A DNA stretch of 23,579 bases, taken from a virus. Below are positions 3,082 to 22,808 of this stretch, piece by piece. The stretch is from positions 1 to 23,579 of IMG/VR virus record IMGVR_UViG_3300034160_000208. One strand, written 5' to 3'. The translations under genes and the position numbers were made by a program. Below the pieces are notes generated by a model. The model saw only the letters and a program-made list of their open reading frames with translations. It did no database searches and was not told the origin of the DNA. Numbering within the stretch: position 1 is the stretch's first letter; each line of letters starts with the position of its first letter.

Positions 3082-3216
3082 TGTTAATTTCCTTTGTGAT
3101 TATATTGCTGAAGATAAGAACGTTAGAAAAGAGTATTCAATGCGGCTATGGCTATGCATGCCTTACGTATTCTTCAAATATGCAGCCCTGCGGTTCCAGA
3201 GCAGATTAGCGGTTGT

Positions 3217-5250: not shown

Positions 5251-5268
5251 AGTGAATTTCCTTTTATT

Positions 5269-6618: not shown

Positions 6619-6627
6619 ATTCCCCCC

Positions 6628-7038: not shown

Positions 7039-7040
7039 AA

Positions 7041-8093
7041 TTAATACCCCACAGCCATCCAATAAGCCTCACGTTCCCTTGCACCATGATACCAAGCGAA
7101 ACTTGTATTGCTTGCCATTAAATTGCTCGTTTGTGTATTCCAGGTCGTTTCATAACCCTGAGCGAAATTACGTAGAGTAAATGATACGGACAATATTCTA
7201 TTTGGCATGGCGATATGTAACCCCACCCAATCAGTACTACCATTAGAGTTATTAGTACCTGAGGCAAAACCACCTTGAAAAATCATCCCGCTGCTGAGAT
7301 CTTTATACCACCATGCATCTCCACTGACCGCTCGCTGAGTGGGGGGATTGTTTGGGCTATAAACCCGCTGCCCCTGCTCATAGAGCCCAGCACCAGTATC
7401 AATATTTCCTAATACTCTGCCGCCATGTATGCTTAAATAACGACTATCAGGAGGATTATTGGGGCTATAAACTCTCTGACCTTGCTCATAGAGTCCTGCA
7501 CTAGTATCAATACTTCCTAATACTCTGCCACCGTTGATACTTATATAACGGCTATCAGGAGGGTTATTTGGGCTATAGACCCTCTGCCCTTGCTCCAGAA
7601 CCTCTGTGCCAGTCGCAGTGTTTAAATTACCATTTCTATCAATTTCAAAATACTTTCCTGTGACATTAGAAGTCACTCTAACATATCCATCTGTTGGTGT
7701 TGAAACCGTACCCTGCACTTTACCGTTGGCATCTTTGATGGTGTATTTTGTTGCAGTGGCATTTGATTTAACCTCTAACCCCCCCGTCAGTATTCCGCCA
7801 GTCAATGGAAGATAACCTTTGTTAATAAATTGAGTGAGTGCATTCACTAAATTTATTTGTAAAGTCTTCGTATCCCCATTATCCAGTACATCTTGCTCAC
7901 TATTATCAGCAATAAACTGTGCTACTGCATTAGTAATGACGCTGGATTGCCGCAAAGCGGTATTAATCTCTTTGGATTTTGCCACTCCGGTATTAAACCC
8001 CGAACTTCTAGCACTTAGCGCCAACCATTCGTCTGAGCTTAATACATTCGCACCATTATTTACCCCAAAGGGTAGAAACTCATTTTTAGCCAT
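7041..8093 (-). CDS. Tail fibre with Gp53-like C-terminus, 350 aa
   Basis: The N-terminal ~85 residues (MAKNEFLPFG...) are clearly paralogous to the 225-aa collar-domain fibre at 8699-9376, so both probably dock on the same baseplate partner. A middle region carries three tandem 36-residue repeats built around EQGQRVYSPNNPP. The last ~95 residues, ending WMAVGY, resemble the Gp53-like tail fibre C-terminal domain. Start chosen at ATG 8093 because it gives the same MAKNEF start as the paralogue and has AAAAGGA upstream; ATG 8102 sits on that ribosome site. It is followed after 2 bp by its own assembly chaperone. Confidence 0.83.
   Translation of the reverse strand: MAKNEFLPFGVNNGANVLSSDEWLALSARSSGFNTGVAKSKEINTALRQSSVITNAVAQFIADNSEQDVLDNGDTKTLQINLVNALTQFINKGYLPLTGGILTGGLEVKSNATATKYTIKDANGKVQGTVSTPTDGYVRVTSNVTGKYFEIDRNGNLNTATGTEVLEQGQRVYSPNNPPDSRYISINGGRVLGSIDTSAGLYEQGQRVYSPNNPPDSRYLSIHGGRVLGNIDTGAGLYEQGQRVYSPNNPPTQRAVSGDAWWYKDLSSGMIFQGGFASGTNNSNGSTDWVGLHIAMPNRILSVSFTLRNFAQGYETTWNTQTSNLMASNTSFAWYHGAREREAYWMAVGY
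7341..7595 (-). repeat. Tandem 108-bp coding repeats in fibre gene
   Basis: Two full copies and a partial third, with unit starts at 7595, 7487 and 7379, each encode 36 residues starting EQGQRVYSPNNPP and containing GGRVLG.IDT.AGL. Copies differ by a few bases. The period is a whole number of codons, so copy-number change would keep the frame and alter shaft length. Confidence 0.85.
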
Positions 8094-8108
8094 AGGTAAC
8101 ATCCTTTT

Positions 8109-8699
8109 TTACGCAGGTAATTCAGGCCAATTAATATCGGGCGCTGCATCCAGGTCTATACGACTTAATTGAACGCGATAGCGTCGCCAATGGCTGAGTA
8201 ATGCAACCTCCGCCTCGGTTGCCATACCTAAATCTACGGCATCAGTCAGGGGAGTAATTACCGCATTAGCTGCCGCGTTCAACTCTGCACGTTGATGGGT
8301 TGCAGTAACAATGTCGGCAGCGTGCTGTGCTGTTTTGTCGGTAACCCATTTTTTGCCATCCCATTGATCAAACGGGGTGTTAGGAAACAAAGCAGTGGTA
8401 TTAAGTGGCAATGCTCCCAGCTCGTTAATCGTTACAGGTTGACCATTTTCGGTGTTATACAACTTTTTACCGCGATGATCTTCAACAATTTCCCAGATAT
8501 CATCGACGCGACAAACGATATATCCTGACTTCGTTTTTGGTGGTGCGTCAATACAGGCATTAGCGGGTAATCCAACACCTTCTGACAAGAACTCATCACA
8601 ACAGTTCAAATACTCGCCTGTTGTACCGTCGTAATTAAATACTGTAACTAATCCTGATGTAATGGCAGTATAATTATTATCTAAAATAGCCTGATTCAT
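8109..8699 (-). CDS. Tail fibre assembly chaperone (caudo_TAP-type), 196 aa
   Basis: This protein has the longer, usual form of the phage fibre assembly family: a variable N-terminal half, then WDGKKWVTD and a C-terminal ALLSHWRRYRVQLSRIDLD ... INWPELPA block. Its start codon ATG 8699 overlaps the stop of the 225-aa fibre by one base, so the two are coupled and this is presumably that fibre's chaperone. The next fibre starts 15 bp downstream. Confidence 0.88.
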   Translation of the reverse strand: MNQAILDNNYTAITSGLVTVFNYDGTTGEYLNCCDEFLSEGVGLPANACIDAPPKTKSGYIVCRVDDIWEIVEDHRGKKLYNTENGQPVTINELGALPLNTTALFPNTPFDQWDGKKWVTDKTAQHAADIVTATHQRAELNAAANAVITPLTDAVDLGMATEAEVALLSHWRRYRVQLSRIDLDAAPDINWPELPA

Positions 8700-9376
8700 T
8701 ACGCAGCCCTCACGATATAGTTAAATGCGATATTACGCGGTACAGTTTCATTACTGCCCTCCTCTGAAATATATACTCCGCTCTCACCAAAATAGGCGAA
8801 ATATGTCTGTGAGGAAGAAGCCCTGTACATCTCATGCACTGCTGGCACCTTGGTACCCGTTCCGTTGCCAAACAACAGCGCGTGATTGTGTTTACGCATC
8901 TTATCTGTTTGGGGGCTTACGAGAGTTCGCCCAGTATCCACCCCTCTACCATCATCCCACCCGCGAATAAACTCGCCGCGTAAATCGGGTAATACGCCGC
9001 TGGGATATGCTAATGCCAAGTTGGGATAGAGCGTTTTGCTAAATGTTGCGCCATTACATTTTAACCAGCCTGTGGGTGGGGTCGCTGTCGGCCAAGGGAG
9101 CGGGATGCCCGTTGGGGTTAGCAGGTTTTTTAGCGCAGCAAGCAACGTTGAGGTATCGCCGTTATCCAGCACATCCTTGCCACTACTATCGGCAATAAAC
9201 TGCGCCACCACGCTGCTGATAACGCTGGATTGCCGCCAAGCGGTATTCAGTTCTTTAGATTTTGCTGCACCTGAGGCAAAACCCTTGCCGCGCGCAGGCA
9301 GTGCCGACCAATCTGCCGGGGTAAGGACGTTAGCCCCAGCCCCAATGCCGAAGGGTAAAAACTCATTTTTAGCCAT
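8699..9376 (-). CDS. Short tail fibre with collar domain, 225 aa
   Basis: The N-terminal ~85 residues are shared with the 350-aa fibre downstream (attachment part). Residues about 88-145 form a phage tail collar domain: the segments GIPLPWP, GWLKCNGATF, LPDLRGEFIRGWDDGRG are characteristic. The C-terminus ends NIAFNYIVRAA, the usual end of such fibres. It is short for a side fibre. It starts at ATG 9376 with AAAGGAAA upstream and overlaps the end of the DUF2612 gene by 8 bp. It is the first of the receptor-binding genes. Confidence 0.86.
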   Translation of the reverse strand: MAKNEFLPFGIGAGANVLTPADWSALPARGKGFASGAAKSKELNTAWRQSSVISSVVAQFIADSSGKDVLDNGDTSTLLAALKNLLTPTGIPLPWPTATPPTGWLKCNGATFSKTLYPNLALAYPSGVLPDLRGEFIRGWDDGRGVDTGRTLVSPQTDKMRKHNHALLFGNGTGTKVPAVHEMYRASSSQTYFAYFGESGVYISEEGSNETVPRNIAFNYIVRAA

Positions 9377-10037
9377 TAGTGATTTCCTTTAGGTCCAGAC
9401 CCCACATGCCTTTGTCAAAGCCGGACAGGTATTTGTTGTCAGCATCAAAACCGAATAACGGCCCCGGTTCCGATACCATGGTGTAATCTGCAATACGCAC
9501 GCCGCCGGGTTTCACATCCAGATAGCCAAAGGCAATGATCGATTGCACTACGGCAGGTAATGGGGCTCCACTCAGATAGACGCTCATGGTCATATCAAGA
9601 TTATCGACGGCAAAGATCTGGGTTTGGTCATCGGGGAAAACACTCTGATAGATGTTACTGAGGGTCGCCATCGTCCCGTCCCAGTTGTTCGCCAGGATTT
9701 TGGCACGCAGGATGGTGCGGTAAGCCTCATCATCCAGCGCGGTAAATCCCATATCATCGAACACGCCTTGCCAGCTTCCCTGGTTGTAACCTAACCCTTC
9801 GGTATCAAAGGAGAAATAGATGCCGTTAATGGTGCTTCTCACCACGCGGCCGATACCGATCCACAACCCCAGAGCGTCGAGCTGGCTGCTTACCGCGCGA
9901 TCGAGATCGAACTTATTGATAAAATCGTCCAGGGTTGACTGCAAAGCAGCAAACGGCGCACTGCTCAGGCCGATGGTGTCGAGATATTTCGGTTTTCCGG
10001 CATGGTAGGCCGTAATAAGCGCTTGATAACGATTCAT
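9369..10037 (-). CDS. Baseplate/tail protein DUF2612, 222 aa
   Basis: This protein is the tail-protein-I analogue in this type of contractile tail. It begins MNRYQALITAYHAGKPKYLD, then a segment with DLDRAVSSQLDALGLWIGIGR, typical of DUF2612. It should cap the baseplate wedge and connect the GpJ-like protein to the fibres, in line with its position between them. It overlaps the GpJ-like gene by 4 bp (start within its stop) and the first fibre by 8 bp. Full-length. Confidence 0.85.
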   Translation of the reverse strand: MNRYQALITAYHAGKPKYLDTIGLSSAPFAALQSTLDDFINKFDLDRAVSSQLDALGLWIGIGRVVRSTINGIYFSFDTEGLGYNQGSWQGVFDDMGFTALDDEAYRTILRAKILANNWDGTMATLSNIYQSVFPDDQTQIFAVDNLDMTMSVYLSGAPLPAVVQSIIAFGYLDVKPGGVRIADYTMVSEPGPLFGFDADNKYLSGFDKGMWGLDLKEITNG

Positions 10038-11215
10038 ATTGTCACCACCGTGACGTTCACGGCCGAACAGGTGACTGCCTGATTAAAAGTGACGTTGATA
10101 TTAGCCGCCGCCAACGCACTGGAAGATTTACCGATTTGCAGATCGCTCAAGTCATACACACGCCCTTCGCCATTAAGGTTGGCAGGGACAAACAGGCGGT
10201 GCAGCAATACCGGATCGCCGATCGCCACGCCGTTAATGTAATCTGCAATGGCAGATTTCATCTGCTCAGCAATGTTGGTGGTGTACCCCACCAACGGCTT
10301 CAAGGTGACGCGCACATAGATCGGAACACTGGTTTTACGAAAGAAAGAAACCGAACGCGTAATGCCATACTGATCGGTCACTGGAACAACGGTGGTGCCA
10401 TAGGTCCCGGTGCCTGGCGTTTTTTTGGTGGCAATCGTCTTGGCTATCTGCCGGTCATCGCCGCCGTCCACCACAATCGCAATCGAGTGGCTGGGGATAC
10501 CGTTGCTGTCGGTGGTACTGGTATCATTTTCATAGCCACGGTAGCGCTCCACATTAGGCAAAGTGGCGATAGCACCGATAATCCCCTCCAGCACCGTGCG
10601 CGATGGCAGCGAAACAGAACGCGCTTGGCGAATGCGCAATTCTGCATCCGACTCTACAGGTTGCCCCGGCGACGCCGCTTGTGGGTTAGTGACCGCTTGC
10701 CAGCCACGGGTTGGAGAACCAATTACGCTAAGATCGCCCGGCAATGCAATCACCGCACCGATTGCCTGGCAAGTCGCGGTCACGGTTACCTGCCCTGACG
10801 AACCAATCACTACGCTACTCGGCAGGCTCCAACTGATGCCGTTGGTGTCGCGCACCACACCGTTGGTGATTTGCGTGCCGACTTGCCCGGTGAGCACCAC
10901 GTCAGCCGTGGATTGGCTGGCAGCATTTTTAGTAATACCGTTGATTTTGACATTATTTTCCAATGCTCGACCCTGGGCCGTTGCTGGGCTGAAAGAGTTA
11001 AATACCGCGATCGCCATATTATTGGCGTCATGAATTGCCAGCGCGATCACAGCGATCCACTGCCCATCTTTGCTGTCTGGTTCCAGGTAGGCATCTTCGC
11101 CATAAATCTGGCGGAAAAAAGCAGTCAGCGTGCTAAGGATGGTCTGATAATCGGGCGCACTGATCCCACGGGCATCGACGCTAGCCGATAACCCTAATGT
11201 ATCGAGATTGAGCAT
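10034..11215 (-). CDS. Baseplate J-like protein, 393 aa
   Basis: This is the baseplate wedge protein of the gp6/GpJ class, which forms the ring around the hub and triggers sheath contraction. The central block GWQAVTNPQAASPGQPVESD followed by AELRIRQARS is the hallmark of the family, and the following residues form the LEGIIGAIATLPNVERYRGYEN segment typical of domain II. The length is normal. It follows the gp25-like gene with a one-base overlap. Confidence 0.93.
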   Translation of the reverse strand: MLNLDTLGLSASVDARGISAPDYQTILSTLTAFFRQIYGEDAYLEPDSKDGQWIAVIALAIHDANNMAIAVFNSFSPATAQGRALENNVKINGITKNAASQSTADVVLTGQVGTQITNGVVRDTNGISWSLPSSVVIGSSGQVTVTATCQAIGAVIALPGDLSVIGSPTRGWQAVTNPQAASPGQPVESDAELRIRQARSVSLPSRTVLEGIIGAIATLPNVERYRGYENDTSTTDSNGIPSHSIAIVVDGGDDRQIAKTIATKKTPGTGTYGTTVVPVTDQYGITRSVSFFRKTSVPIYVRVTLKPLVGYTTNIAEQMKSAIADYINGVAIGDPVLLHRLFVPANLNGEGRVYDLSDLQIGKSSSALAAANINVTFNQAVTCSAVNVTVVTI

Positions 11216-11568
11216 TATGCCTCGCTATTAATGATGGTTGTGCCGTACAAGGTGTTGATTGAGGATGTAAAGGTCACACGGCGGGTCTGCGGGTTAGATT
11301 GCACCTGAAAATCGGTGATCTCGTTCACTCCCTGGGTTCCCAGAATACGTTCACGAACGGCCATCTGATAAACCAGCGACCTATGCTTTCCCAGAATATC
11401 GGTTTTATAGGGCGTACCTGCGGCCGTATCCAAAAACCACTCCCCTTGCCACAGCTCAAAACGGGTTTTCACTGCCTGAACCACCGCCTCTGGGGTATTA
11501 ACCATAAAGGTGTTATCTCCCGCGCCAAAAATGTAATCGCCAGAGCTATCTTCTCTGCGGTAACGCAT
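11215..11568 (-). CDS. gp25-like baseplate wedge protein, 117 aa
   Basis: A small wedge protein lying between spike and GpJ, as in many simple contractile tails. Visible features include WQGEWFLDTAAGTPY near the middle and KTDILGK with a C-terminal beta-rich region (QTRRVTFTSS). The family nucleates sheath assembly at the baseplate. Its start overlaps the spike gene's stop by one base, and its stop touches the GpJ start. The order spike, gp25, J, DUF2612 supports the call more than any single motif. Confidence 0.8.
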   Translation of the reverse strand: MRYRREDSSGDYIFGAGDNTFMVNTPEAVVQAVKTRFELWQGEWFLDTAAGTPYKTDILGKHRSLVYQMAVRERILGTQGVNEITDFQVQSNPQTRRVTFTSSINTLYGTTIINSEA

Positions 11569-12323
11569 TATTGTGCTCCTCCTGTGCTGCCACTGCCGGT
11601 CTGCACACCGCCGTGCTTGTGATTTTTCAGGCTGATACCGGCTGCTGTAACATCGTTTTTTACCGTCACCGGCCCGTTAATGGTAGCGCTGCCGCCACTG
11701 CTCCCCATACCCTGAGACAGATTGCCATTGATGGTGACATTGCCATTAAACACGATGGTAGGAGAGGTGATCTCCGTTCCACCGTTGGCATTTGCCGTCA
11801 GTTTTCCCGACGTGATGACATTAACCGCGTGGCTGCCGGGGATCAGTTCGATCATCGCGGCCCCATCGTCACTGCGCAGTTGTGCCGATGAGGTGCTGAT
11901 ATTACTGATTTTGTGGGGCTGCGATTGTGGCCCAAGAATGGCAAAAGCATCTGCCAGATGGTGCATACGCCCATCTACCGCATCCTGTACATCCCCACTT
12001 TGCCACCAGAAATCAATACAGCGGTCGGCAAACACCACCAGGCATTCATCGCCTGCTTTCACTGGAAATGTCAGGCTGACGCCACCGCCACGCGGGAAGA
12101 TCACTGGCACATCTACCAGCAGAGGTAATTCAGTTTGGGTGACTGTACCGTCGGGATTTTCAACCCTGCCACGAATGGCAGGGCGCACTTCGCAGGTCAC
12201 AGCATCGGCATTAAAAGATTCGATAATACCCGGCATCGCCACACGCAGTTCTGAGAGAAGAGATTCGCGTAGGGTATCGAGAATATTCTCCGTCGAACTG
12301 GCACGTTCTTTATTAGTTATCAT
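11568..12323 (-). CDS. Membrane-puncturing spike, Gp138-type, 251 aa
   Basis: The spike sits under the tube and pierces the target outer membrane when the sheath contracts. Residues about 20-130 form the OB-like Gp138_N domain (ESFNADAVTCEVRP, VIFPRGGGVSLTFPVKAGDECLV, DRCIDFWWQSG). Residues about 140-230 are a repetitive beta-helix region with IVFNGNVTINGNL. The C-terminus carries H235-K-H237 within LKNHKHGG, an HxH pair that in known spikes binds iron at the tip. A Gly/Ser-rich tail follows. It overlaps the hub gene by 11 bp. Confidence 0.92.
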   Translation of the reverse strand: MITNKERASSTENILDTLRESLLSELRVAMPGIIESFNADAVTCEVRPAIRGRVENPDGTVTQTELPLLVDVPVIFPRGGGVSLTFPVKAGDECLVVFADRCIDFWWQSGDVQDAVDGRMHHLADAFAILGPQSQPHKISNISTSSAQLRSDDGAAMIELIPGSHAVNVITSGKLTANANGGTEITSPTIVFNGNVTINGNLSQGMGSSGGSATINGPVTVKNDVTAAGISLKNHKHGGVQTGSGSTGGAQ

Positions 12324-13269
12324 TACTTCTCACCTTATTTAACGCGATAGCACCCGCCTTGCCTTTTGCGACACAAACCAGATCCATATACCACTCATTG
12401 CCGCGAGTATCGCCATGGTAAGAGATATTAATCACCTTATAATCGCCATCTTTTGACAAGACGGAAGACATTGCCTTGATCTGCTTTTTGGCTACTCTGG
12501 CTGAATCCACACTCATAACCTCAGTGGATGAAGTCGATTTATAGACACTGCTATTATCGAGCCTAATCAGGCTATTAATAACAATGCTGGGGTTAATTAA
12601 ACACTGCAGATTAATCCCGCCATCAATCGTCTGCTGGGGCATCCCAACCAATCCGGTCCTATTGTTAAGAATAATAATATCGGTACTATGAGAATTTTCA
12701 GGTCTTATCTGGATAGTATTATTTACGTACTGCCAGGTCGCCTTGGTTTGCGACGCCAAGCGGTCCATCTCATCCCGGTGCATACCATAAATCGGTTTGC
12801 CACGGGGCATTTTTATATCATCCAGTTCAGGAATAAGGCCTACGGTAACGCCAAACTCCCTTACAGACTTCAACAAGGCTTGAAAGACATCTGTTTTACT
12901 GTAACCCGCTGCCAACGTGGTATTTACTGTGGCATAGCAAAAAGCTTTGTCGTTCTCCGATGCCTGGATAGTGACAAAGGTATCCGTCGAATTATCCCTA
13001 CCATCGATGGAAAAACTTATCTCCCCACTGAATATTAAACTGACATTATCCTGATACCCTGCCGATAATTGTATTTGTGCAAACTCTCCGCGCGTTATTT
13101 TATTCGCCACATCCGATGAGAGGTTATAAATTTTAAACACCGCGACTTTAGGATATTTTGTGTCTTGCCAATTGATTGAAAAAGTGAATTTAAAGGGAGA
13201 TAAATCCAACCCATTCCCCTCTTCATCAACTATTACCAGAGAGCATTTCCTTATCCAGTTTTTACTCAT
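12313..13269 (-). CDS. Baseplate hub protein, gp27-like, 318 aa
   Basis: This protein probably forms the hub ring joining tube end and spike. It starts MSKNWIRKCSLVI, with the pattern FTFSINWQDTKYPKVAVFKIYNLS and AQIQLSAGYQ typical of phage hub proteins of this order, and a later segment QQTIDGGINLQCLINPSI. It lies directly before the spike gene. By eye its base composition is more AT-rich than that of the spike, J and sheath genes. The assignment rests on position and overall pattern. Confidence 0.78.
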   Translation of the reverse strand: MSKNWIRKCSLVIVDEEGNGLDLSPFKFTFSINWQDTKYPKVAVFKIYNLSSDVANKITRGEFAQIQLSAGYQDNVSLIFSGEISFSIDGRDNSTDTFVTIQASENDKAFCYATVNTTLAAGYSKTDVFQALLKSVREFGVTVGLIPELDDIKMPRGKPIYGMHRDEMDRLASQTKATWQYVNNTIQIRPENSHSTDIIILNNRTGLVGMPQQTIDGGINLQCLINPSIVINSLIRLDNSSVYKSTSSTEVMSVDSARVAKKQIKAMSSVLSKDGDYKVINISYHGDTRGNEWYMDLVCVAKGKAGAIALNKVRSNDN

Positions 13270-13302
13270 ATTTCACCTACTGATAAAGTTACCCCGTTTA
13301 AG

Positions 13303-13602
13303 TCAGTTGGTAATAAAATAAAGATGCCCACCGCTACCAAGATTCTCTTTAGTTGGAACTGCATAAATATCAACATCAGAGGCTACCACCAGCGCACCAT
13401 TAAAGCCCAGATGTCGATAGGGCTGTAAAAGATTAGTACCGGTCACCAGAGGTATACCATTGACAATATCAGCTCCAGTACTGCTAGCAATATCGAGAAT
13501 CCAGCCAGCCATATCACGCCAGAGTAAGGTCATTTGATATTCAACACTCCCCAATGTGATTCTGAAGCGTTGATTATCTGCTGTCAGAGCGATCTCTATC
13601 AT
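13303..13602 (-). CDS. Baseplate plug protein, Pam3 gp18-like, 99 aa
   Basis: A small protein with the pattern FRITLGSVEYQMTLLWRDM and WILDI, then DIVNGIPLVTGTNLL and a C-terminal YRHLG ... LGSGGHLYF. This matches the domain known from the plug protein of cyanophage Pam3 baseplates, which closes the hub. It overlaps the Dit-like gene by 4 bp (ATGA-type) and precedes the hub gene, the usual order in this class. Confidence 0.82.
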   Translation of the reverse strand: MIEIALTADNQRFRITLGSVEYQMTLLWRDMAGWILDIASSTGADIVNGIPLVTGTNLLQPYRHLGFNGALVVASDVDIYAVPTKENLGSGGHLYFITN

Positions 13603-14234
13603 AACCCCAATACTCCTTTGAGTTCAGACACCCCAGTTTTTATCGCGCCCGTCACAGTATCAACAAAGGATCTCAACATATTATTCGGGTTTACCGTCAG
13701 CGGGTTTTTTAACCCAGTATTGGAAATACCGGCGGTATTCTGCCCTTGAGCCATATCTTCAACCGGGGTCGCGGTAATGGTTTGAGTATTAGTGATATTG
13801 ATTTGCTGCATAGTGATGGTGATCATCAACACATTTTCAGTGGCTGCATCCGTTGTCACATCCAATGAGCGGATCAGCATATTTTCATACTCTCGCTTAC
13901 CGGTAATAACAGTAAAATGTTCAAATGTGTTTTGTAACTTCAGTAACTGCTGATAGATCTCTCTCGGGCTGGTACCAATGGAAAGTTCATGCCCTGCAAT
14001 TTCATACTGCGAGGTATCAAAAAAATCCACCAATGAACCTGCACCGGCAAACCCTAGTTCCATCACCAGATCGGCAGGGCGATTATAGGCGTGATCGTTA
14101 ATCGCCGCCCCGACCCCCACCGGATGTTCAGTGATTACCGTGCTATCGTTGTGCTTCTCGCTGATCACAATGCTGGGCACAATGATTCCAATACGCCGTT
14201 TTTGCTGATTAAACAGCACTGATAGCAGATCCAT
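13599..14234 (-). CDS. Dit-like baseplate/tail protein, 211 aa
   Basis: Probably the ring protein that joins tail tube to baseplate hub. The N-terminal half (IVPSIVISEKHNDSTVITEH, then a segment ending GVGAAINDHAY) fits a Dit-like domain, followed by SPREIYQQLLKLQNTFEHF and VITGKREYENMLI, also typical. The last ~60 residues are low-complexity Thr/Asn/Gly-rich with a possible amphipathic end. Start ATG 14234 overlaps the tape-measure-position gene's stop, giving coupling. Confidence 0.8.
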   Translation of the reverse strand: MDLLSVLFNQQKRRIGIIVPSIVISEKHNDSTVITEHPVGVGAAINDHAYNRPADLVMELGFAGAGSLVDFFDTSQYEIAGHELSIGTSPREIYQQLLKLQNTFEHFTVITGKREYENMLIRSLDVTTDAATENVLMITITMQQINITNTQTITATPVEDMAQGQNTAGISNTGLKNPLTVNPNNMLRSFVDTVTGAIKTGVSELKGVLGL

Positions 14235-15787
14235 TATGATATCCTCGGTATTATTTTACGCACCATATCTCTATTCACTCTATCCTGAGCGCTGGTCACT
14301 ATTTTTCCTAGCTCTTGAGGATCCTTACACGCGGAGTTTAACGTAATTGAGGTGTTCTGGTTAATCACCGGTGAAGCTGGCCCGGATGCACAACAACAGC
14401 CCTCTTTTGCCGAGCGATAATCTTCAGGCTGACGCGAGAGTAATGCCTTACTGGCCTGTTGCAAATTAGGAACAGATAATTGCTTTAATACAGACACCAT
14501 GCTACTTAGCAGATCATAGCCTGGTGATGATTTTTTTCCTTCAGCTATGCCGATGCTGTTTTTTACCGCCACAGGTGCAGGAACTGCTTTAGGGGATGAT
14601 GGCTTTTTCTGGGCGACAACGGTATTTTTTTGGAGCGTTTTGTTTAAATACTCAGCCCTAGGACGTAGATATGACTTAGGTTCCTTCCAGTAACCCGCAT
14701 TAGGACCAAAATAAGTAGAGTCCGGACCAGAACTCGTTTGTGACCCATAGAATTTGCCTATTTTTTTGTCAGCATCTATAGGTTCTTCAACTATGCCAGT
14801 GTGTCCATCCCATAATGCAATATCTCCCGGTTTCACATCTTTGGCATCTATCTCATCAAAGAATTTTGAATTTTTTAATGCTGCAGTGTTTTGATAAGGA
14901 ATTTTATAACCATATCGTTTTAATATTTCACTAACCAAATGCGAGCAATCTATTGTAGGAGTACCATCCTCTAACCTTCCTTTTCCCTTAGCCCATTTAT
15001 AACCTTCATACAATTTTTCAATATCTTTCGTAATCAATGGGGGAGTGTAACTCCCCGGTTGCTCCGTAACAACACTTGGTTTAATAACAGGAACCACTCC
15101 ATCTGTATTATTTAACTTTCCACTATCGTTCGAAAAATCGCTCTGACTTTTACTAACTGGATTAATAATATCCTTTACATATTTATCTGCTCCAGATAGA
15201 TATTGATTCATATTGCTATAGGCTTCCGCCAATGATATTGAGCCATCAGCATATAGAATACTATTGTTTTTTATAACCTTCGGGGATAACACAGAGCTGA
15301 CTTTGGCATTTGGGTCTTCCACTAGCGCTTTTAAAAACTTAGCCCCCCCTCCCACACCTAAATTATGTAAAGAATAAACATCGGCAATATTACCTTTTCT
15401 GCCTAAATCTTGCACCCGTTTAATGTTATCTTGGGTAAATTCCGCCAACATAGCCGCTTGCAGCCTTGCATCATCTCTATATGTAAGAGCTTGTGCCATA
15501 GTAAGCTGCCTAGCATTCTTAATGCCATACTTTTCACCATATTTTCTTAGCACATCTAACCAAGTACCTTTTGTAAATTGGCCAAGGCCATATGCAGTCG
15601 AAGTACTTGGTCCTACATTAGTTCTGAATCTACTTTCAAAATAAGCCATTCTGACTATGATTTCAGGGTCAACACCAGCACTCTTGGCTGCTTCAGCCAA
15701 CAAGGGTTTAGCCGCTTGCCAATTATTCCATCTAATCCTCTCCACTTCTTGCTGTGTCATTTTAGGTTTTGATTTACTCTTACTCAT
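14234..15787 (-). CDS. Tape-measure-position protein with SLT and NlpC/P60-like hydrolase domains, 517 aa
   Basis: This gene occupies the place between the assembly chaperone and the Dit-like gene where a tape measure is expected. Residues about 25-150 form a lytic transglycosylase-like domain: MAYFESRF has the likely catalytic Glu51, followed by TAYGLGQFTKGTW. Residues about 255-375 form an NlpC/P60- or CHAP-like peptidase domain with Cys281 in IDCSHL and His329 in WDGHTGIV. Residues about 400-517 resemble the ends of tape measure proteins of this tail class (NTSITLNSACKDPQELGKIV and a basic end). No long helical ruler region is seen. By eye bases 14640-15780 are markedly AT-rich compared with neighbours. 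It starts 7 bp after the frameshift product's stop. Likely role: local cell-wall breach during injection, plus some tail-length function. Confidence 0.82.
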   Translation of the reverse strand: MSKSKSKPKMTQQEVERIRWNNWQAAKPLLAEAAKSAGVDPEIIVRMAYFESRFRTNVGPSTSTAYGLGQFTKGTWLDVLRKYGEKYGIKNARQLTMAQALTYRDDARLQAAMLAEFTQDNIKRVQDLGRKGNIADVYSLHNLGVGGGAKFLKALVEDPNAKVSSVLSPKVIKNNSILYADGSISLAEAYSNMNQYLSGADKYVKDIINPVSKSQSDFSNDSGKLNNTDGVVPVIKPSVVTEQPGSYTPPLITKDIEKLYEGYKWAKGKGRLEDGTPTIDCSHLVSEILKRYGYKIPYQNTAALKNSKFFDEIDAKDVKPGDIALWDGHTGIVEEPIDADKKIGKFYGSQTSSGPDSTYFGPNAGYWKEPKSYLRPRAEYLNKTLQKNTVVAQKKPSSPKAVPAPVAVKNSIGIAEGKKSSPGYDLLSSMVSVLKQLSVPNLQQASKALLSRQPEDYRSAKEGCCCASGPASPVINQNTSITLNSACKDPQELGKIVTSAQDRVNRDMVRKIIPRIS

Positions 15788-15793
15788 TTTTCG

Positions 15794-16377
15794 TCACTCA
15801 CTTTGTCGGCGCCATTTCTCTACCCTTTCAGCGTTATCAAACTGCAGGTCGAGAAAATCATTCATCAATGCCACATCAGCCAAGCCAATAGAACGATCGC
15901 GCAGTGCAGTATACGGAATAAGACCTGCGTCGACCGGGCGCAGCAGGTACTCTTCCCCCCCCGGCAGGGTATCCAGCGTTAAACCGCTGGCAGGTCGGCT
16001 ATCTCGCTGGCGAGGGGTACGGGAAAAAAATCGCCAAGGGAATCTCGGAGAACGTTACCGACCAGTTCCAGCATGCCCAGCATGTCGATATCGTCAAACA
16101 TCATCACGCCATCCTGGAAAACTGCAGTCCAGATTTTGCCGTTCTTGCGCGAGACCACTGAGAGGCAAGGATGGAGGATCGCATCACAGTCGGCGTCGCT
16201 CATGGCGGCAACGGCTTCCGCCACCTGCGGCAACAGCGCCGCAAGCGTAATTTCACCACTTTTCAGTTCCTCAAAAACCCCCGCCACCGCGGGGAGTAAT
16301 TTACGAGAAACACGAAACTGGTCGAAAACATCGAGCTTTACCGCCCGATATTCTTGCCCTTTTAACTCAAATTCCAT
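15794..16377 (-). CDS. Tail assembly chaperone -1 frameshift product (G-GT type), 194 aa
   Basis: If ribosomes slip -1 at the T7 run (16024-16030), translation leaves the chaperone frame after residue 118 and continues for 76 more residues to a TGA at 15794-15796. The added part contains GGEEYLLRPVDAGLIPY, then LRDRSIGLADVALMNDFLD, the hallmark of the short DUF6889-type proteins that follow chaperones in related phages. No ATG, GTG or TTG opens this frame near the conserved part, so fusion is the most economical way to express it. Known phage G/GT pairs bind tape measure and tube subunits during assembly. The frame is open from the slip to the stop; slippage itself is inferred. Confidence 0.82.
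15979..16377 (-). CDS. Tail assembly chaperone, unshifted product, 132 aa
   Basis: This is the short (G-like) product, which ends at TAA 15979-15981. It begins MEFELKGQEYRAVKLDVFDQFRVSRKL, with a conserved core LGMLELVGNVLRDSLGDFFP near the end. It follows the tube gene by 2 bp and precedes the tape-measure-position gene, exactly the place of tail assembly chaperones. Amount relative to the fused product would be set by slip frequency at codons 116-118. Confidence 0.88.
   Translation of the reverse strand: MEFELKGQEYRAVKLDVFDQFRVSRKLLPAVAGVFEELKSGEITLAALLPQVAEAVAAMSDADCDAILHPCLSVVSRKNGKIWTAVFQDGVMMFDDIDMLGMLELVGNVLRDSLGDFFPVPLASEIADLPAV
16024..16030 (-). other. Programmed -1 ribosomal frameshift site (T TTT TTT)
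   Basis: Seven T residues on the coding strand sit in the phase T TTT TTT relative to the chaperone frame (third base of the GAT codon, then TTT TTT, then CCC). This is a perfect X XXY YYZ heptamer. A -1 slip here enters precisely the frame encoding the conserved DUF6889-like extension. Confidence 0.82.
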
Positions 16378-16379
16378 AG

Positions 16380-16820
16380 TTAGAATTCTCCCAGCATCTG
16401 GTCGATCTTGCCGCAGTCAAACACCCAGCTCACATTGCCACCTTCTTTGGCATTCACATGGTCAGGGCGTTTTTGGAACGCACAGTTACGCGCCACAATG
16501 GTATCCCCAGAGGCGGTATTACGGATGGTGATAATGTTGTTGCCCCAGAGGGTTGAAGAGAGGCCCTGTGCGCCATAAACCGAAGAGAGCTTTTTGTTCA
16601 CCGGTGAGGTTTTAAGCAGCGTAACGGTAATGGTGCCGGACTTAGCGGCGTGCAGGCTGTGCATCACTTCACCATCTGCCCCTAGAGTCATGGTGTTTTG
16701 CGGGCCGCTCATGGAAACCACGATCCCCTCGTCGGCGTTAGAGGCGCCATAACCCAGATCAATCACCCCAGTCGGGCCTGCCAAAGTGGCGCTAACGTCT
16801 GCAAATGAATAAGTAGCCAT
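16380..16820 (-). CDS. Tail tube protein (DUF3277), 146 aa
   Basis: This protein should form the inner tube that is driven through the target envelope. It begins MATYSFADVSATLAGPTGV and includes AKSGTITVTLLKTSP and a C-terminal GGNVSWVFDCGKID, all typical of DUF3277. Length is normal. It lies between sheath (15 bp upstream) and assembly chaperone (2 bp downstream), the standard order. Confidence 0.93.
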   Translation of the reverse strand: MATYSFADVSATLAGPTGVIDLGYGASNADEGIVVSMSGPQNTMTLGADGEVMHSLHAAKSGTITVTLLKTSPVNKKLSSVYGAQGLSSTLWGNNIITIRNTASGDTIVARNCAFQKRPDHVNAKEGGNVSWVFDCGKIDQMLGEF

Positions 16821-16835: not shown

Positions 16836-18308
16836 TTAACGATTTACGTTGATAATGACATCGGCGTAATGAACTGCGCCCGCCAGTTTGATGGCACACT
16901 GAATGACCGGTGCACGGCGTTTTTCACGTTCTGCCTGAGATTGTTCGGCAATCGGTGAGGCATAGGTGTAATAGCCTTTGGTCAGCGTCTCACCCGATTG
17001 CAGAATACCCAGCGGCCCGCCATTCCATACCCCTGGAGCAATAAGCCCGTTATCGACACCTTTCGCCAGTGACTGCTCGACGTTGGTCAACAGCCGTGTC
17101 ACGCCGCCATCGGTTTGTGGAATTTTGCTGGTAGAGGTGAACAGCAGGTTGTAGAGATTGTTCTGCACATAGTTTTGTAACCAGTCCAGACCATGACGCT
17201 CATCGATAAAGTCGCCATTACACATCACCCCTTCCTGGATGATCGCCGTATCGTTGTTGTAATTGACAAAGACGTTGGCATTTTTTCCTTGCAGCGTATT
17301 GGCATCGTTTTGCGACAGGGTTTCAGCGGTAATGCCCGGTTGCTGTTTGAACTTCAGAGTGATAGTGGTGTTGTTACCACTGAAATTGACAGTAAAGGCG
17401 CGCCCAAACAGCGAAGCCACCGCATAAGGATTGGCGCTCGAATACTGCACCAAAGTGCGTGAATAGTTCGCGGCTTTCAGGGTGCTGGCAATATCCGTGC
17501 TGCTGCCTGCATTGAGGATGCTGGTATTTTGCGTGGTGTGGCCAAAAATACGTGCAACACCATCAGATTCAATCAGCGCAGCAACCTTGGTGACATCTGC
17601 ATCACTCAGTGAAGTATCCGCAATCATCAGGCCGTACCAGGCAGTGGATTGGCTGGCCAGTGCAGCGATACACTCATCAATCTTCTCTGCCGCTTTGCGC
17701 GGCACAATTAACGCACCGACACTTTGTACCAGCCCCATCAAAACAGAGAGATCGGTACCGGTATTCACCGAACCATAAGTAACGGCAGACGTCGTACCTG
17801 TGGTTTTTGAGCTGATGATAAAACGGCTGCCATCCCACACCACAGTGGCCGTGCCAATGGCAGTAGCCACTTTGGCAGCAATACCGTTCAAGCTGGTGTC
17901 GGTGGAGAAATCCAATGGGCCCACGGTTTTCAGGGTGCCATCAACGGTGATTTTCATTGAGGCATCTTTCACCACAGTAAACCGGCTCAGTTGCTGTTGC
18001 GCTGGCGTCAGAACGCCACCACGCAAGACTGCGGACGCATCGTTCTTCGCCCAGCGCCCGATCAGCAAGTCCACAGGGCGCGGAGATTGTTGATAGTAAA
18101 GGTTCGCGGCTTGATATTCCGGTGAATTGAGGCCGAAATCGGCCAGCACACCGCTGATATCGCTGTAGGACCGCAGGCGCTCGTTGGCATCAATAACCGG
18201 CGAACTGCCAACAATCAGCAAAGAACCAAAGTTACGAGCCTGTGCGGCGCGGACCGCCATATTCACGGACACGTTGATAATGTTAGAAACAGGTAATCCC
18301 TGTGACAT
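16836..18308 (-). CDS. Contractile tail sheath protein (DUF3383), 490 aa
   Basis: This protein forms the sheath whose contraction powers injection. It begins [17 protein letters not shown], with [17 protein letters not shown] and [11 protein letters not shown] in the first 110 residues, and a C-terminal [20 protein letters not shown] followed by VIINVNR, matching DUF3383 sheaths. Full length with no interruption. Presence of an intact sheath marks the tail as contractile (R-type, not F-type). Confidence 0.95.
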
Positions 18309-18311
18309 AAG

Positions 18312-18893
18312 TTACTCTCCAAAAAAGTGTGTTGGTGCTTCGAGGATAGAGTGGATCGCGTACTCTCTGACCACTTTGCGTTGGAACGTCAAGTGTTGAT
18401 CGTAGCGTCTAACCCACTGATTATTTTTAAGTTCATGGGCTGAAACTATGGCTCCCGACGCCGAAAATGCGAGGCCAGACTGATTCAGTGCTTCCCGGTT
18501 TTGTGCGATGGCGACACCATCACGAAACTCGGTAGCGAGCCGCTGTCCATGAGGGCCGTAAAAACTGACCATGATTTCAATCAGCTCATTGCGCCAGAGC
18601 TGCACGCTGTCGTCCGTTTGATTGACGAATGCCGGATTATCGTTGGCCTGAAATTTCAATATTCCTACGGAACACCAATCCTCCGAGGCCGACGGCTGGT
18701 GAGGCTGTTCGGCAGTCCAGTCCAATAAAACGTGCTTCGGCGGCAGCCCAGAGACACCCCGTACCCAGCGGGAGAGGGTGCGCTCCAGTTCGATGTCATC
18801 CTGCTGTGATGAGGAAATAGGTCTTAGGTAAGTGGTTTCGCTGTTGCTGTTATCGAGGTGGTTCTGACTGTTGCTATCAAAGTTGTTGCTCAT
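18312..18893 (-). CDS. Tail terminator / neck protein (LIC_12616-type), 193 aa
   Basis: Probably caps the head-proximal end of the tube and sheath. The pattern LSRWVRGVSGLPPKHVLLDW, then SVGILKF and LWRNELIEIMVSFYGPHGQ, and the C-terminal RRYDQHLTFQRKVVREYAI fit the LIC_12616 neck-terminator family. The N-terminal ~40 residues are Asn/Ser-rich and probably disordered. I start at ATG 18893 (GGGG upstream); a TTG at 18911 would add six residues. The start lies 17 bp inside the upstream gene. It precedes the sheath by 3 bp. In a headless particle this cap is needed to end the tail. Confidence 0.82.
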   Translation of the reverse strand: MSNNFDSNSQNHLDNSNSETTYLRPISSSQQDDIELERTLSRWVRGVSGLPPKHVLLDWTAEQPHQPSASEDWCSVGILKFQANDNPAFVNQTDDSVQLWRNELIEIMVSFYGPHGQRLATEFRDGVAIAQNREALNQSGLAFSASGAIVSAHELKNNQWVRRYDQHLTFQRKVVREYAIHSILEAPTHFFGE

Positions 18894-19272
18894 CCGGCAC
18901 CCCACCGTCAAACGGCATCAGTTCACAATGGGCCAGTACGAATCCGGCACCATAAGCCAAGTAGGGATCGACAAAGGACACTCGGTAGTCACGCCCCTGA
19001 TATGTGACAATATCGGCGTCACGCCCACTTTGCCCCTGAGTTAACCTCTCCAAGGTGATGATCTGTATCGAGCCACTGATTGTCTGGCTCGGTGGCATAC
19101 GCTGGGTCATCAGTGAATGGTTGACCGTAACCACACCGATAAACGGCATTGATTGCCGGGCAACGCTGGTGACACCATCATCGTCGGTCAGCAACAGGTT
19201 GCGCGTGACCACCAGCGTCGAGTCGGCAAAATCGGCATCCAGCAGAATATCGGTTACATCAAGCAGCGGCAT
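18877..19272 (-). CDS. Putative neck/closure protein, 131 aa
   Basis: I do not recognise the family with certainty. The protein begins MPLLDVTDILLDADFADSTLVVTRN and has a beta-rich body with SGSIQIITLERLTQG, DIVTYQGRDYRV and FVLAHCELMPFDGG. In related contractile phages a protein of this size sits between the DUF4054 adaptor and the tail terminator and acts as a head-closure or stopper component. It has GGGAGG just upstream of ATG 19272 and is separated from DUF4054 by 55 bp. Confidence 0.65.
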   Translation of the reverse strand: MPLLDVTDILLDADFADSTLVVTRNLLLTDDDGVTSVARQSMPFIGVVTVNHSLMTQRMPPSQTISGSIQIITLERLTQGQSGRDADIVTYQGRDYRVSFVDPYLAYGAGFVLAHCELMPFDGGVPDEQQL

Positions 19273-19327
19273 GGCAACCTCCCTGCCGCACGCGGAAAGT
19301 TCATGCTATTTTTCATTGCGTTAGCAT

Positions 19328-19741
19328 TCATAGCTGACGGCCTCCTGCGCCAAACAGCAGCAGCAGATCGTAAAACTCGGCGCCATAACGGGTATGATTC
19401 CACCAGCTAGCCTTAGGATTAAGAGTGGCGCAGTTGTCATAGCGGATACTGACCTTATCCACAGATTTTGCTGCCAGTACGCCACTGTTGTTGCCACTGC
19501 TGCCCCCCAGTGTGCTGGCCCGCATATCGGCTGCAAACAGAGTGAGATAATGGGCTACGAACAGCTCGACCACGTAGGGGTAGAGCAGGTCATAGCGCGC
19601 TTCATCCAGCAGTTGATCGGCCAATGCCAAGTGGAGAGCAATTTGTGCCGAGGGATAACGGGTCACATCGGTAAATTGCGGAAAATCACTACGGAACTGT
19701 GCCTCAGTAGGCAGCGTCCGGTTGTTAGATGGTGGTGACAT
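19328..19741 (-). CDS. Head-tail adaptor (DUF4054), 137 aa
   Basis: This protein is a neck component that normally binds under the portal ring. It has TEAQFRSDFPQFTDVTRYPSAQI near the start, LDEARYDLLYPYVVELFVAHYLTLF in the middle and a C-terminal WWNHTRYGAEFYDLLLLFG, all typical of DUF4054. Length is normal. In head-bearing relatives a major capsid gene lies shortly upstream; here only a 56-aa ORF and the portal gene precede it. Confidence 0.87.
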   Translation of the reverse strand: MSPPSNNRTLPTEAQFRSDFPQFTDVTRYPSAQIALHLALADQLLDEARYDLLYPYVVELFVAHYLTLFAADMRASTLGGSSGNNSGVLAAKSVDKVSIRYDNCATLNPKASWWNHTRYGAEFYDLLLLFGAGGRQL

Positions 19742-19743
19742 AA

Positions 19744-19914
19744 TTAATGACCCCCTTTAATGGTTTCCGCCACTGGCGGCTTTCGACTCCGTCCTGTTTG
19801 TGGTGTTGCCGGAGCCACCGATCGGCGCACCAGCGGCGTGCCAAAACACAATAGGAAACCCTCGGCTAATCGATAACGAGTGTTATCGAGCCGGGCATTA
19901 AAAAAATATTTCAT
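19744..19914 (-). CDS. Small conserved-looking ORF, 56 aa
   Basis: ATG 19914 is preceded by AAGGA at a workable distance. The product begins MKYFFNARLDNTRYRLAEGF and has a basic, Pro-rich second half (GRSRKPPVAET). It ends 2 bp before the DUF4054 start. It fills the gap that would otherwise be noncoding. I recall similar small ORFs between capsid and adaptor genes in related phages, but the function is unknown. Its survival at the site where capsid genes are missing marks the downstream edge of the presumed deletion. Confidence 0.6.
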   Translation of the reverse strand: MKYFFNARLDNTRYRLAEGFLLCFGTPLVRRSVAPATPQTGRSRKPPVAETIKGGH

Positions 19915-19926
19915 GGTGATTAATCC

Positions 19927-19946
19927 TTGAGAAAGGGCTTTCTCAA
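19927..19946. repeat. Perfect inverted repeat at the portal stop codon
   Basis: TTGAGAAAG / CTTTCTCAA, nine-base arms around GG. It spans the portal stop (19943-19945) and the 28-bp gap before the small ORF, exactly where head genes are missing. No T-tract follows on either strand, so it is not a classical terminator. Confidence 0.8.
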
Positions 19947-21283
19947 CCTTGACGCAAGCGGGTTAAATCATCTTGACGAATGGTGGAGCCGATACCGGTG
20001 ACCCGCGATGAGTCACGCAACTGTTCCGCACCCGCATAAGCCGTCATCACGCCGCTGTTCACGGCGTTGCCGATCGCTTCAACGGTCTGCATGGCCACTT
20101 TGCTACGATCAAGCTCTGACATCTGCCATAGCGGATTGAAGCTAAATGCAAAATCCTGCGGCAAGGCTTTGCCCAGCACAGAACGATGAAGAATCGACAT
20201 CAGGGTATTGACCGGGCGGCGCAGCTGCCGTGCCTGTTGAGCCGCGATGCCATCGTAGTAATTCGCCAGGTCCACATCGCCAGTGGTAAAACCTGCCGGA
20301 GATTGGCCAAACAGCCTGACCAGCGGAATGTTAAGCGCCCCAGAAAGCTGTTGTGCAAACTGTGCCAGTACCTCGGGTAACCCATTGAGGTGATAGGCAT
20401 GGGTTTCGAACTTGTCGCTGACATCCATCAGCGTCAGGCCATCAATCGACTGCCCCTGCTGAATAGCCGCCATCTGCGTCAGCAACGCTTCTCTCGCCGG
20501 GCCTCCCATCGCCAGAATCTTGCGCAGGTCGGTCACGCTGTAAGTGCGCAGCTGGGCTTTGTTCATCAACTGCACGGCTGCGGTTGTGGCGCTATCAAAT
20601 GCCAGGATCCGGTCATAAATTCGCTCTATTACGCTGATCCCCCAGCCGTTCTCATCCTGAGCCGGTTGGCTGGGCAAGGTGATGCCATCAACGCGGATGA
20701 CCCGGCTGTAATGGATCTTCCATGGCGGAATACCGCTTGAGGTATCCGTCACCTGGTAAAAACGCGGTTGCCCTAAATCAGGCCCCAGCGCACTTTCCCT
20801 GTCGCTCAGCGATAGCGACACCTGCCAGCGATTCATCGGGACAATGCCGCGGAATACGCCCGCTTTCACTGTCTCTACCCGTAAGGGAGTTGACATATCG
20901 TCACCATCCAGCAGGATCACCCCAAGCGCACCGCCATACAGTCGGCCTTGCTTGATAACGTTATTCAGGCTATTCCACAGGCCCAAACTATCCCAAATCC
21001 CCTGCAGTTGCTGCTTTGCATCCGGCTCCAAAGTAGAGGTTATCGTTACCCCATTACGGGTCATATCCTCTGCTACGGTATCCACCGCCGCACCTACCAG
21101 CCATGATGAGCGGTAAGCCGAATCAATTAATGACCGCTGATCACTGATTCTTTCAGGAAGAGGATTCTGATTGCCAGAAAATGGCGGCACACGAATGCCT
21201 GGCAGCAACGTGCCGTCGCCGTTACCCAGTTGGGTTGCCGGGGTATTTGTAGGCTGACTATTGAGTGACGTATCTATTACCAT
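19943..21283 (-). CDS. Portal protein (DUF1073 / phage_portal_3), 446 aa
   Basis: In complete phages this protein forms the dodecameric DNA channel at the capsid vertex. YRSSWLVGAAVDTVAEDMTRNG near residue 60 and the middle segment GALGVILLDGDDMSTPL are diagnostic; the C-terminal half has LVRLFGQSPAGFTTGDVDLANYYD. The frame is open over the usual family length and ends with DDLTRLRQG. GGGGG precedes ATG 21283. It is the first gene of the late operon. No terminase lies upstream and no capsid or morphogenesis gene downstream, so its normal partners are missing. Families bearing this domain are sometimes labelled anti-CBASS Acb1; I see no support for that activity here. Confidence 0.88.
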   Translation of the reverse strand: MVIDTSLNSQPTNTPATQLGNGDGTLLPGIRVPPFSGNQNPLPERISDQRSLIDSAYRSSWLVGAAVDTVAEDMTRNGVTITSTLEPDAKQQLQGIWDSLGLWNSLNNVIKQGRLYGGALGVILLDGDDMSTPLRVETVKAGVFRGIVPMNRWQVSLSLSDRESALGPDLGQPRFYQVTDTSSGIPPWKIHYSRVIRVDGITLPSQPAQDENGWGISVIERIYDRILAFDSATTAAVQLMNKAQLRTYSVTDLRKILAMGGPAREALLTQMAAIQQGQSIDGLTLMDVSDKFETHAYHLNGLPEVLAQFAQQLSGALNIPLVRLFGQSPAGFTTGDVDLANYYDGIAAQQARQLRRPVNTLMSILHRSVLGKALPQDFAFSFNPLWQMSELDRSKVAMQTVEAIGNAVNSGVMTAYAGAEQLRDSSRVTGIGSTIRQDDLTRLRQG

Positions 21284-21596: not shown

Positions 21597-21956
21597 TCAA
21601 GCGGTTGCGGCAGTCTCGGTATAAGAGAAGATTTGCCCGGCAATAAAGGCCTCGGCAACACGCAGTAGATTGGCTACATAACTCTGTGCTTTACCGATCT
21701 CTTTTGCCAAACGGTTCTGGCTAACGCGGTAGACATAATGCGCAACAATCAGTTTATAAGCCATTAAATCAAAACGTTTAAGCCCAGCAACCGCCGCGTC
21801 GATCAACATGCCTTCCTTGTCATCAATACGGATCCGGTTAGATGAACTCATCGGCAAGGCTTCCTGAAAAGTAATATTTACCGTTGCGAACTCTGTTCCC
21901 AGATGACAACGAGCCCAGTTGCCCCACGTCTCAAGGCTTTCCTTTACATTGTTCAT
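21597..21956 (-). CDS. Late antiterminator, phage Q family (PF06530-like), 119 aa
   Basis: Q proteins load onto RNA polymerase paused near the late promoter and make it ignore terminators. The N-terminal LETWGNWARCH is the family's signature start. A core with IDAAVAGLKRFDLMAYKLIVAHYVY follows, then a helix-turn-helix-like VSQNRLAKEIGKAQSYVANLLRVAEAFI, as in other members. Length is typical. GGAG precedes ATG 21956. It lies alone between the repressor-controlled promoter and a strong terminator, upstream of a second promoter/terminator pair. A plain transcriptional activator is the alternative. Confidence 0.78.
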   Translation of the reverse strand: MNNVKESLETWGNWARCHLGTEFATVNITFQEALPMSSSNRIRIDDKEGMLIDAAVAGLKRFDLMAYKLIVAHYVYRVSQNRLAKEIGKAQSYVANLLRVAEAFIAGQIFSYTETAATA

Positions 21957-22097: not shown

Positions 22098-22808
22098 ATG
22101 CAAACTTTAGGTGAACGCCTTGCTAAACGGCGCGAACAACTGGGCTTGAGCCAAAAGGCCTTGGCAGAAAAAGTCGGGGTCAGCCAGCAGTCGATCAATA
22201 AAATAGAGACTGGGCAAACCCGATCGCCACGCAATCTGGAGAAACTGGCAGAATCACTGTCGGTAACATCACAGTGGTTGCTGTTTGGTGAGGGTAACTC
22301 AGCGGCAACGTCACCTAAACTCGATGAAATCAAAGAGAGCCGCTTACGCGTTGAAGAATGGGAATCCATGGAGCAGGATCAGAAAGAGTTCATCGATATA
22401 CCGGTACTAGACGTTGAGGCCTCGGCGGGCAGCGGTGCCATGCCAGAAGAGGAAAGGGAAATCTATCGCCTGCCGTTTCGGCGCTATACCCTGCGCCGCT
22501 TGGGGGTGAATGCCCGTGATGCGCGGGTTGTCAGAGTGATTGGCAATAGCATGGCGCCGCTGTTACGCAGTGGTGACGTAGTCGGTATCGATACCGCGAA
22601 TCAGTTTCCGATCAACGATGGCGATTATTATGCGATCCGGGATGGGGATTTAATCCGCGTCAAGCAGTTGGTGGCCAAACCTGATGGTGGGGTGATCATC
22701 AAGAGCTTTAATAGTGCTGAATATCCGGATGAATCGCTGAATCGTCAGGAATTTGAACAACGCATCCATATTATTGGCCGGGTTTTCTGGTCTTCGACTA
22801 TCTGGTAA
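22098..22808 (+). CDS. LexA-like self-cleaving phage repressor (HTH_3 + peptidase S24), 236 aa
   Basis: This protein is the master repressor of the element. Residues about 5-62 are an HTH_3 domain (LGERLAKRREQLGLSQKALA, VSQQSINKIETG, ending SQWLLFGEG). Residues about 100-230 are an S24 peptidase: the cleavage site is Ala110-Gly111 in VEASAGSG, the nucleophile Ser151 in VIGNSMAP and the general base Lys189 in IRVKQLV. All elements for RecA-stimulated self-cleavage are present, so induction by DNA damage is expected. It is the only + strand gene of the element, divergent from Q and convergent with cysH, ending 36 bp from its stop. Confidence 0.93.
   Translation: MQTLGERLAKRREQLGLSQKALAEKVGVSQQSINKIETGQTRSPRNLEKLAESLSVTSQWLLFGEGNSAATSPKLDEIKESRLRVEEWESMEQDQKEFIDIPVLDVEASAGSGAMPEEEREIYRLPFRRYTLRRLGVNARDARVVRVIGNSMAPLLRSGDVVGIDTANQFPINDGDYYAIRDGDLIRVKQLVAKPDGGVIIKSFNSAEYPDESLNRQEFEQRIHIIGRVFWSSTIW

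Follow-up and report, generated by a model that had tools for sequence, protein, structure and literature searches.

The locus described here lies on IMGVR_UViG_3300034160_000208, a 23.6-kb viral-contig fragment (the window, meaning the whole stretch of 23,579 nucleotides that was analysed) with one end in cysH; the locus and both of its flanks were recovered from host genomes too. Judged from its genes, it is probably a chromosomal R-type tailocin that arose from a SEN34-type prophage and in which the portal caps the head-proximal end of the tail. This reading is carried by the gene content, by gene losses and intact frames shared among lineages, by purifying selection, by the loss of the C-terminal tail of the portal, and by a shift of constraint towards its clip, stem and tunnel. 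The first-pass annotation had pointed to an intact 446-residue portal, a DUF4054 adaptor and a closure protein at a headless locus; all three are intact and were correctly identified, as shown by Pfam and PHROG matches and, for the closure protein (the stopper), by its fold.

On the minus strand, from the cysH side, the order is Q antiterminator, portal, a 56-residue open reading frame (ORF), DUF4054 adaptor, stopper, terminator, sheath and a KPP10-ORF10-type protein, followed by baseplate genes, fibres, holins and a muramidase. Neither terminase, capsid, MuF, a complete DUF2213 gene nor an integrase appears in the window in the gene list or among Pfam and PHROG profile matches. The genes of the portal-neck region and the sheath are as follows.

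19943-21283 (-): portal, 446 residues in one open frame, without the C-terminal tail of about 44 residues of phage relatives (PF06381, PHROG 146, fold)
19744-19914 (-): scar ORF, 56 residues, made up of the start of the DUF2213 head protein (~29 residues) and an unrelated variable tail (tblastn, PHROG 1961)
19328-19741 (-): DUF4054 adaptor, homologue of SEN34_9, by homology a dodecameric head-completion ring (PF13262)
19273-19327 (-): non-coding gap at the position of the Neck1/tail-completion gene (PHROG 222) of phage relatives; SEN34_10 absent
18877-19272 (-): stopper/head-closure protein, 131 residues (PHROG 939, fold of model)
18312-18911 (-): tail terminator (PF23961, E=1.4e-31)
16836-18308 (-): tail sheath, DUF3383 (PF11863, E=1.1e-146; homologue of XM1 gp6, E=7.4e-57)

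Identity of the retained portal and neck proteins

The portal belongs to PF06381 both on the profile core (E=1.9e-94, profile positions 3-355 of 357) and on the portal fold of wing, stem, clip and crown, and it matches PHROG 146 (E=2.9e-121). Its structural model, with a mean predicted local distance difference test score (pLDDT) of 73.5 and an unreliable stretch of 43 residues at the N-terminus, resembles the solved portals of Pam3 (Z 26.1 over 346 residues), Pa193 (Z 24.6), E217 (Z 24.3) and XM1 (Z 19.8). The adaptor matches PF13262 (E=7.9e-21) and is homologous to the E217 head-to-tail connector gp27 (E=1.2e-7). An insertion of the adaptor C-terminus into the portal, as in E217 (PMC10329688), is not claimed here, the E217 extension lying beyond the aligned part. 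The stopper was placed by fold because a sequence search against solved structures gave only chance ribosomal matches. The best matches of its AlphaFold model (mean pLDDT 77) are the Pam3 neck (Z 11.8, 4.8 Å over 106 residues), XM1 gp4 (Z 11.7) and Pa193 (Z 11.4), and the T1 stopper scores Z 10.1. It had been the least certain of the three assignments, and is now backed by this modelled fold.

Origin from a SEN34-type phage

The closest annotated complete phages are of the SEN34 type, namely Brunovirus SEN34, Hafnia phage yong1, and relatives from E. coli and Citrobacter, and portals of such phages are 53-55% identical to that of the window over residues 47-440. The gene order in SEN34 is TerS, TerL, portal, MuF, DUF2213, decoration, capsid, orf8, DUF4054, Neck1, stopper, terminator and sheath. 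The locus shares with SEN34 and yong1 the order portal, DUF4054, stopper, terminator, sheath, tube and baseplate, the first five of these being retained relative to SEN34 in the region listed. On the other hand, TerS, TerL, MuF, decoration, capsid, orf8, Neck1 and most of DUF2213 have been lost, all of which SEN34-type phages keep together with the portal C-terminal tail. A complete packaging and head module, by which Brunovirus is recognized, is thus not present at the locus. Sequence has gone missing to either side of the portal as well as from between the kept genes. Upstream, TerS and TerL are absent (TerL abuts the portal in SEN34); downstream, the end of the portal is lost along with MuF, as is DUF2213 from roughly residue 30 up to the start of DUF4054, and so is Neck1, where the gap varies in length and content among lineages and holds no shared open frame.

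The 56-residue ORF is the direct scar of the DUF2213 loss. Over its first 30 residues it shares 63% identity with the beginning of SEN34-type DUF2213 (tblastn, 2e-5 to 3e-5), and this stretch corresponds to positions 1-30 of PHROG 1961; a Pfam search of the whole ORF gave no match. The ORF occupies the same place in all four lineages that carry the locus. Codons 1-29 show no amino-acid change among three of the four, and all pairs differ by 0-3 non-synonymous against 3-8 synonymous changes; the remainder varies freely, with an 18-residue insertion in the genome G008. The near-constant beginning and drifting tail look as if a micro-ORF or start region were still useful.

Age and distribution in Serratia

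The same locus, always beside cysH, is found in Serratia sp. Ag1 (L002), in S. oryzae (L003) and in a third genome, G008 (also L012). Together with the window these form four lineages with an identical set of missing genes and with every frame intact. Both S. oryzae and G008 have the complete locus, with its fibres and lysis genes, in the interval from cysH to cysD; in four other genomes of the genus this interval is empty, without tail remnants. The four carriers form one clade in the cysH tree (support 0.998), within which G008 stands apart from the rest. The same G008 split appears in the portal tree (0.914), where the tailocin portals make up a single clade (1.000) on a long stem of 0.85. 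One insertion followed by descent would be the simplest reading of these sequences. Searches with portal, terminator or sheath found no sister locus of the Serratia clade that lacks a portal, and every Serratia sister locus found by terminator or sheath has one. No second headless lineage with a portal was found among approximately 60 head-bearing and three portal-less related loci, nor among loci from 392 genomes of the family.

Selection on the retained genes

The ratio of non-synonymous to synonymous substitution rates (dN/dS) was calculated pairwise among the four tailocin lineages, with the portals of complete SEN34-type phages as control. Portal values are 0.071-0.150 at a synonymous divergence (dS) of 0.50-0.89, those of the adaptor 0.062-0.140 and those of the stopper 0.041-0.143, alongside 0.144-0.351 for the terminator, 0.044-0.103 for the sheath, 0.046-0.049 for cysH and 0.038-0.068 for the control portals. 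The portal is therefore under clear purifying selection, slightly weaker than in phages. Because the insertion and the losses are shared, the frames are intact and portal dN/dS is this low at such dS, the head was not lost recently, and the portal is not in decay. The very recent loss considered in the first-pass annotation is accordingly not borne out, and the outcome that it had named as speaking against a kept function, namely a portal frame broken in sister loci with dN/dS near 1, is the opposite of what was found.

Remodelling of the portal

All four tailocin portals end at one point, while enterobacterial phage portals extend about 44 residues further, mostly ending in an LRWF-like motif. 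Past position 446 the tailocin portal has 0 residues, where homologues from enterobacterial and marine phages have 16-52 (mostly ~44); this C-terminal tail is not part of the PF06381 definition, and the comparison was made with 42 phage portals. Tail length varies among phages too, since two complete-looking relatives, L036 and L037 (G113, G036), have only 16-25 residues there. From portal topology, the lost tail is predicted to face the capsid interior.

The core has been conserved: 57 of the 64 positions that are invariant in the 42 phage portals are also kept in the window portal. Among the tailocin portals, variable sites are scarce in the stem, clip and tunnel (residues 218-335, 10/118) compared with the wing (46-217, 41/168; Fisher p=0.0005), and the N-arm also collects changes. 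In four groups of phage portals both regions vary alike (p=0.15-0.88). Mapped on the model, this pattern would fit a portal in which the axis and the face that docks the adaptor remain important, and the rim that contacts the capsid has ceased to be so.

Comparison with phage necks and other tailocins

The neck of XM1 consists of 12 portal (gp49), 12 adaptor (gp1), 6 stopper (gp4) and 6 terminator (gp5) chains with a collar spike (PMC10457771), and that of E217 of portal gp19, adaptor gp27, collar gp28 and gateway gp29 (PMC10329688). The kept set of portal, adaptor, stopper and terminator equals the XM1 neck minus its collar spike, and also the E217 ring stack. These fold families are common to the locus and to the necks of XM1, Pam3 and E217, but in the three phages the stack is joined to a DNA-filled capsid, for which the locus has no gene.

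R-type tailocins of the diffocin and pyocin types have a contractile tail, a lysis cassette and a repressor without head or packaging genes. The locus likewise encodes a contractile sheath, tube, baseplate, spike and fibres, as well as a lysis cassette and regulators (holin, muramidase, CI-S24, Q), and the complete cysH-cysD locus of S. oryzae and G008 holds no capsid, terminase or replication genes. Tailocins are described as lacking genes for head formation (PMC12090994), and in this respect the locus departs from the class by its portal, adaptor, stopper and DUF2213 fragment. In diffocin the tail ends in a terminator-like collar and no neck is needed (PMC13324602), whereas the locus additionally retains stopper, adaptor and portal. 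In a search of the open literature, subscription papers aside, no description of a portal-bearing tailocin or of a Serratia tailocin of this type was found.

Relatives collected through a sheath search comprise approximately 60 loci with a full head module, the Serratia clade and three portal-less loci (L109, L110 and L150). The last three have a CI-like repressor, a terminator (34-45% identity) and a sheath (51-67%) homologous to those of the locus, and no portal, adaptor or stopper. In L110 (1905-9932) lysis genes occupy the place expected for the head module, and all three are probable independent tailocins, that is, headless and portal-less tail loci of SEN34 type. They agree, as does diffocin, with the premise of the first-pass annotation that a tail needs only its terminator. 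SEN34-type tails can thus become portal-less loci, and the retention of the portal in Serratia therefore needs a reason.

The portal and neck as a probable cap

The reason favoured here would be a role as cap. A SEN34-type (Brunovirus-like) contractile prophage was probably domesticated in the ancestor of one Serratia clade, where terminase, MuF, scaffold/protease, decoration, capsid and Neck1 would have been shed and the linear ring chain of terminator (6-mer), stopper (6-mer), adaptor (12-mer) and portal (12-mer) kept, the order and copy numbers being those inferred from homologous necks. In the released particle the portal without its C-terminal tail would most likely form a dodecameric cap at the head-proximal end. 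It could close or stabilize that end by holding the neck rings, by keeping the lumen shut, or by retaining the tape measure until contraction. It is an evenly balanced proposition that this represents a new architecture, in which such a portal serves by exaptation as a dodecameric cap or valve, possibly a docking platform, on the head-proximal end of a contractile killing particle. The cap or plug proposed in the first-pass annotation thus gains from the selection, the retention of the contact chain, the loss of the C-terminal tail and the axial constraint; from these we infer the presence of the portal in the particle and what a cap there would do.

Several points weigh against this account. 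Purifying selection shows a function, not the presence of the portal in the particle. The portal has a slightly higher dN/dS than in active phages and a long stem branch (0.85), so that part of it is relaxed or remodelled. The boundary between axial and wing regions was taken from model helices once sliding windows had been inspected, and the comparison includes no more than four tailocin sequences. Single descent may also be questioned, as cysH and the locus are linked and could have been transferred together. Finally, related tailocin-like loci do without a portal, which is dispensable there.

Alternative explanations

The portal and neck might be needed only in assembly, for example in nucleating stopper and terminator or in ending tail polymerization, and not as a cap in the finished particle. 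Portals are initiators of head assembly, and such a role would be expected to leave the same purifying selection and shared retention. It is nevertheless unlikely, as phage tails assemble to the terminator without a portal, and known necks contain portal, adaptor and stopper as stable structural rings; portal-less relatives exist, as does diffocin (PMC13324602). Considerably less probable is the supply of capsid and terminase by a helper prophage in the same cell, with the locus making whole or hybrid virions and keeping its portal for that. On other contigs, Serratia sp. Ag1 does carry a SEN34-like portal together with TerL, MuF, a capsid and a second sheath; this SEN34-like prophage is split between L031 (G001:C17) and L065 (G001:C19). 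However, a compatible host capsid, on which a helper-dependent satellite relies, is not general: in the three carrier genomes, searched for SEN34-type capsids and not for other types, there is one in G001 and 0 in G002 and G008. S. oryzae and G008, the two carriers without a capsid match, hold only one portal of this kind. The portal itself lacks the phage C-terminal tail and is only about half identical to phage portals, and Neck1 is gone. The locus can persist without a helper, and the first-pass suggestion of capsid and terminase from another prophage is not borne out as a general rule.

It is also improbable, perhaps a little more so, that the truncated portal co-assembles with the portals of invading or resident related phages as a dominant-negative defence. 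The portal core is kept despite the loss of the C-terminal tail, and related phages do infect the genus. However, the gene lies directly behind Q in the late operon, and its product would therefore come shortly before lysis of the cell; the retention of adaptor and stopper is left unexplained, and constraint on the portal is axial rather than spread across the whole oligomer interface. A neutral leftover of recent head loss, yet to decay, might be suggested by portal-less tailocins that work elsewhere, and is the least credible of these alternatives, being very hard to reconcile with the dN/dS and dS values, the four intact frames and ancient shared losses on both sides of the portal. Homogenization of the four sequences, which might rescue it, is excluded by their dS, and decay after recent head loss is excluded as an ordinary reading.

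Other genes of the window

The remaining features are the following.

16380-16820 (-): structural protein, KPP10 ORF10 family, tail tube by position (PF11681, E=2.3e-58)
9369-16377 (-): tail chaperone, tail lysozyme/tape region, hub, spike and baseplate genes (PHROG matches; syntenic in other carriers)
1339-9376 (-): tail fibres and fibre-assembly genes in duplicated cassettes (PHROG tail-fibre matches, cross-hits)
1-1244 (-): lysis cassette of two holin-like genes and an N-acetylmuramidase endolysin (PF11860, PF05449, PHROG 198 holin)
21597-21956 (-): Q-type antiterminator (PF06530)
22098-22808 (+): CI-like repressor with an S24 peptidase domain, predicted to be SOS-inducible (PF00717, PF01381)

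The repressor is oriented opposite to the late genes, and the operon that Q would control begins with the portal. The interval between Q and portal holds one terminator-like site, a weak signal against the 0.8 expected by chance. The gene at the tape-measure position, 14234-15787 (-), is short (517 residues) and has matches of transglycosylase and NlpC/P60-like type. Of the tail genes measured it evolves fastest (dN/dS 0.18-0.38). The fibre cassettes are duplicated at 1339-5250 and 6628-9376 (-). According to cross-hits, the fibres of 677 and 580 residues have their N-terminal ~250 residues in common, and the fibre-chaperone pairs of 225/196 and 353/144 residues are paralogous. The 353-residue fibre, at 7041-8102 (-), contains near-identical tandem repeats (YEQGQRVYSPNNPPDSRY...).

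Significance

In tailed phages the portal counts as the part that defines the head and as the gate for DNA, and descriptions of tailocins include no genes for head formation. A portal, adaptor and stopper kept under selection without capsid, scaffold or terminase would provide a natural test of what the portal and neck do in the absence of DNA or a head. If the proposed cap is true, it would reveal a way of closing a tailocin at its proximal end, and the particles would offer portal-neck complexes that are free of DNA and ready for structural studies.

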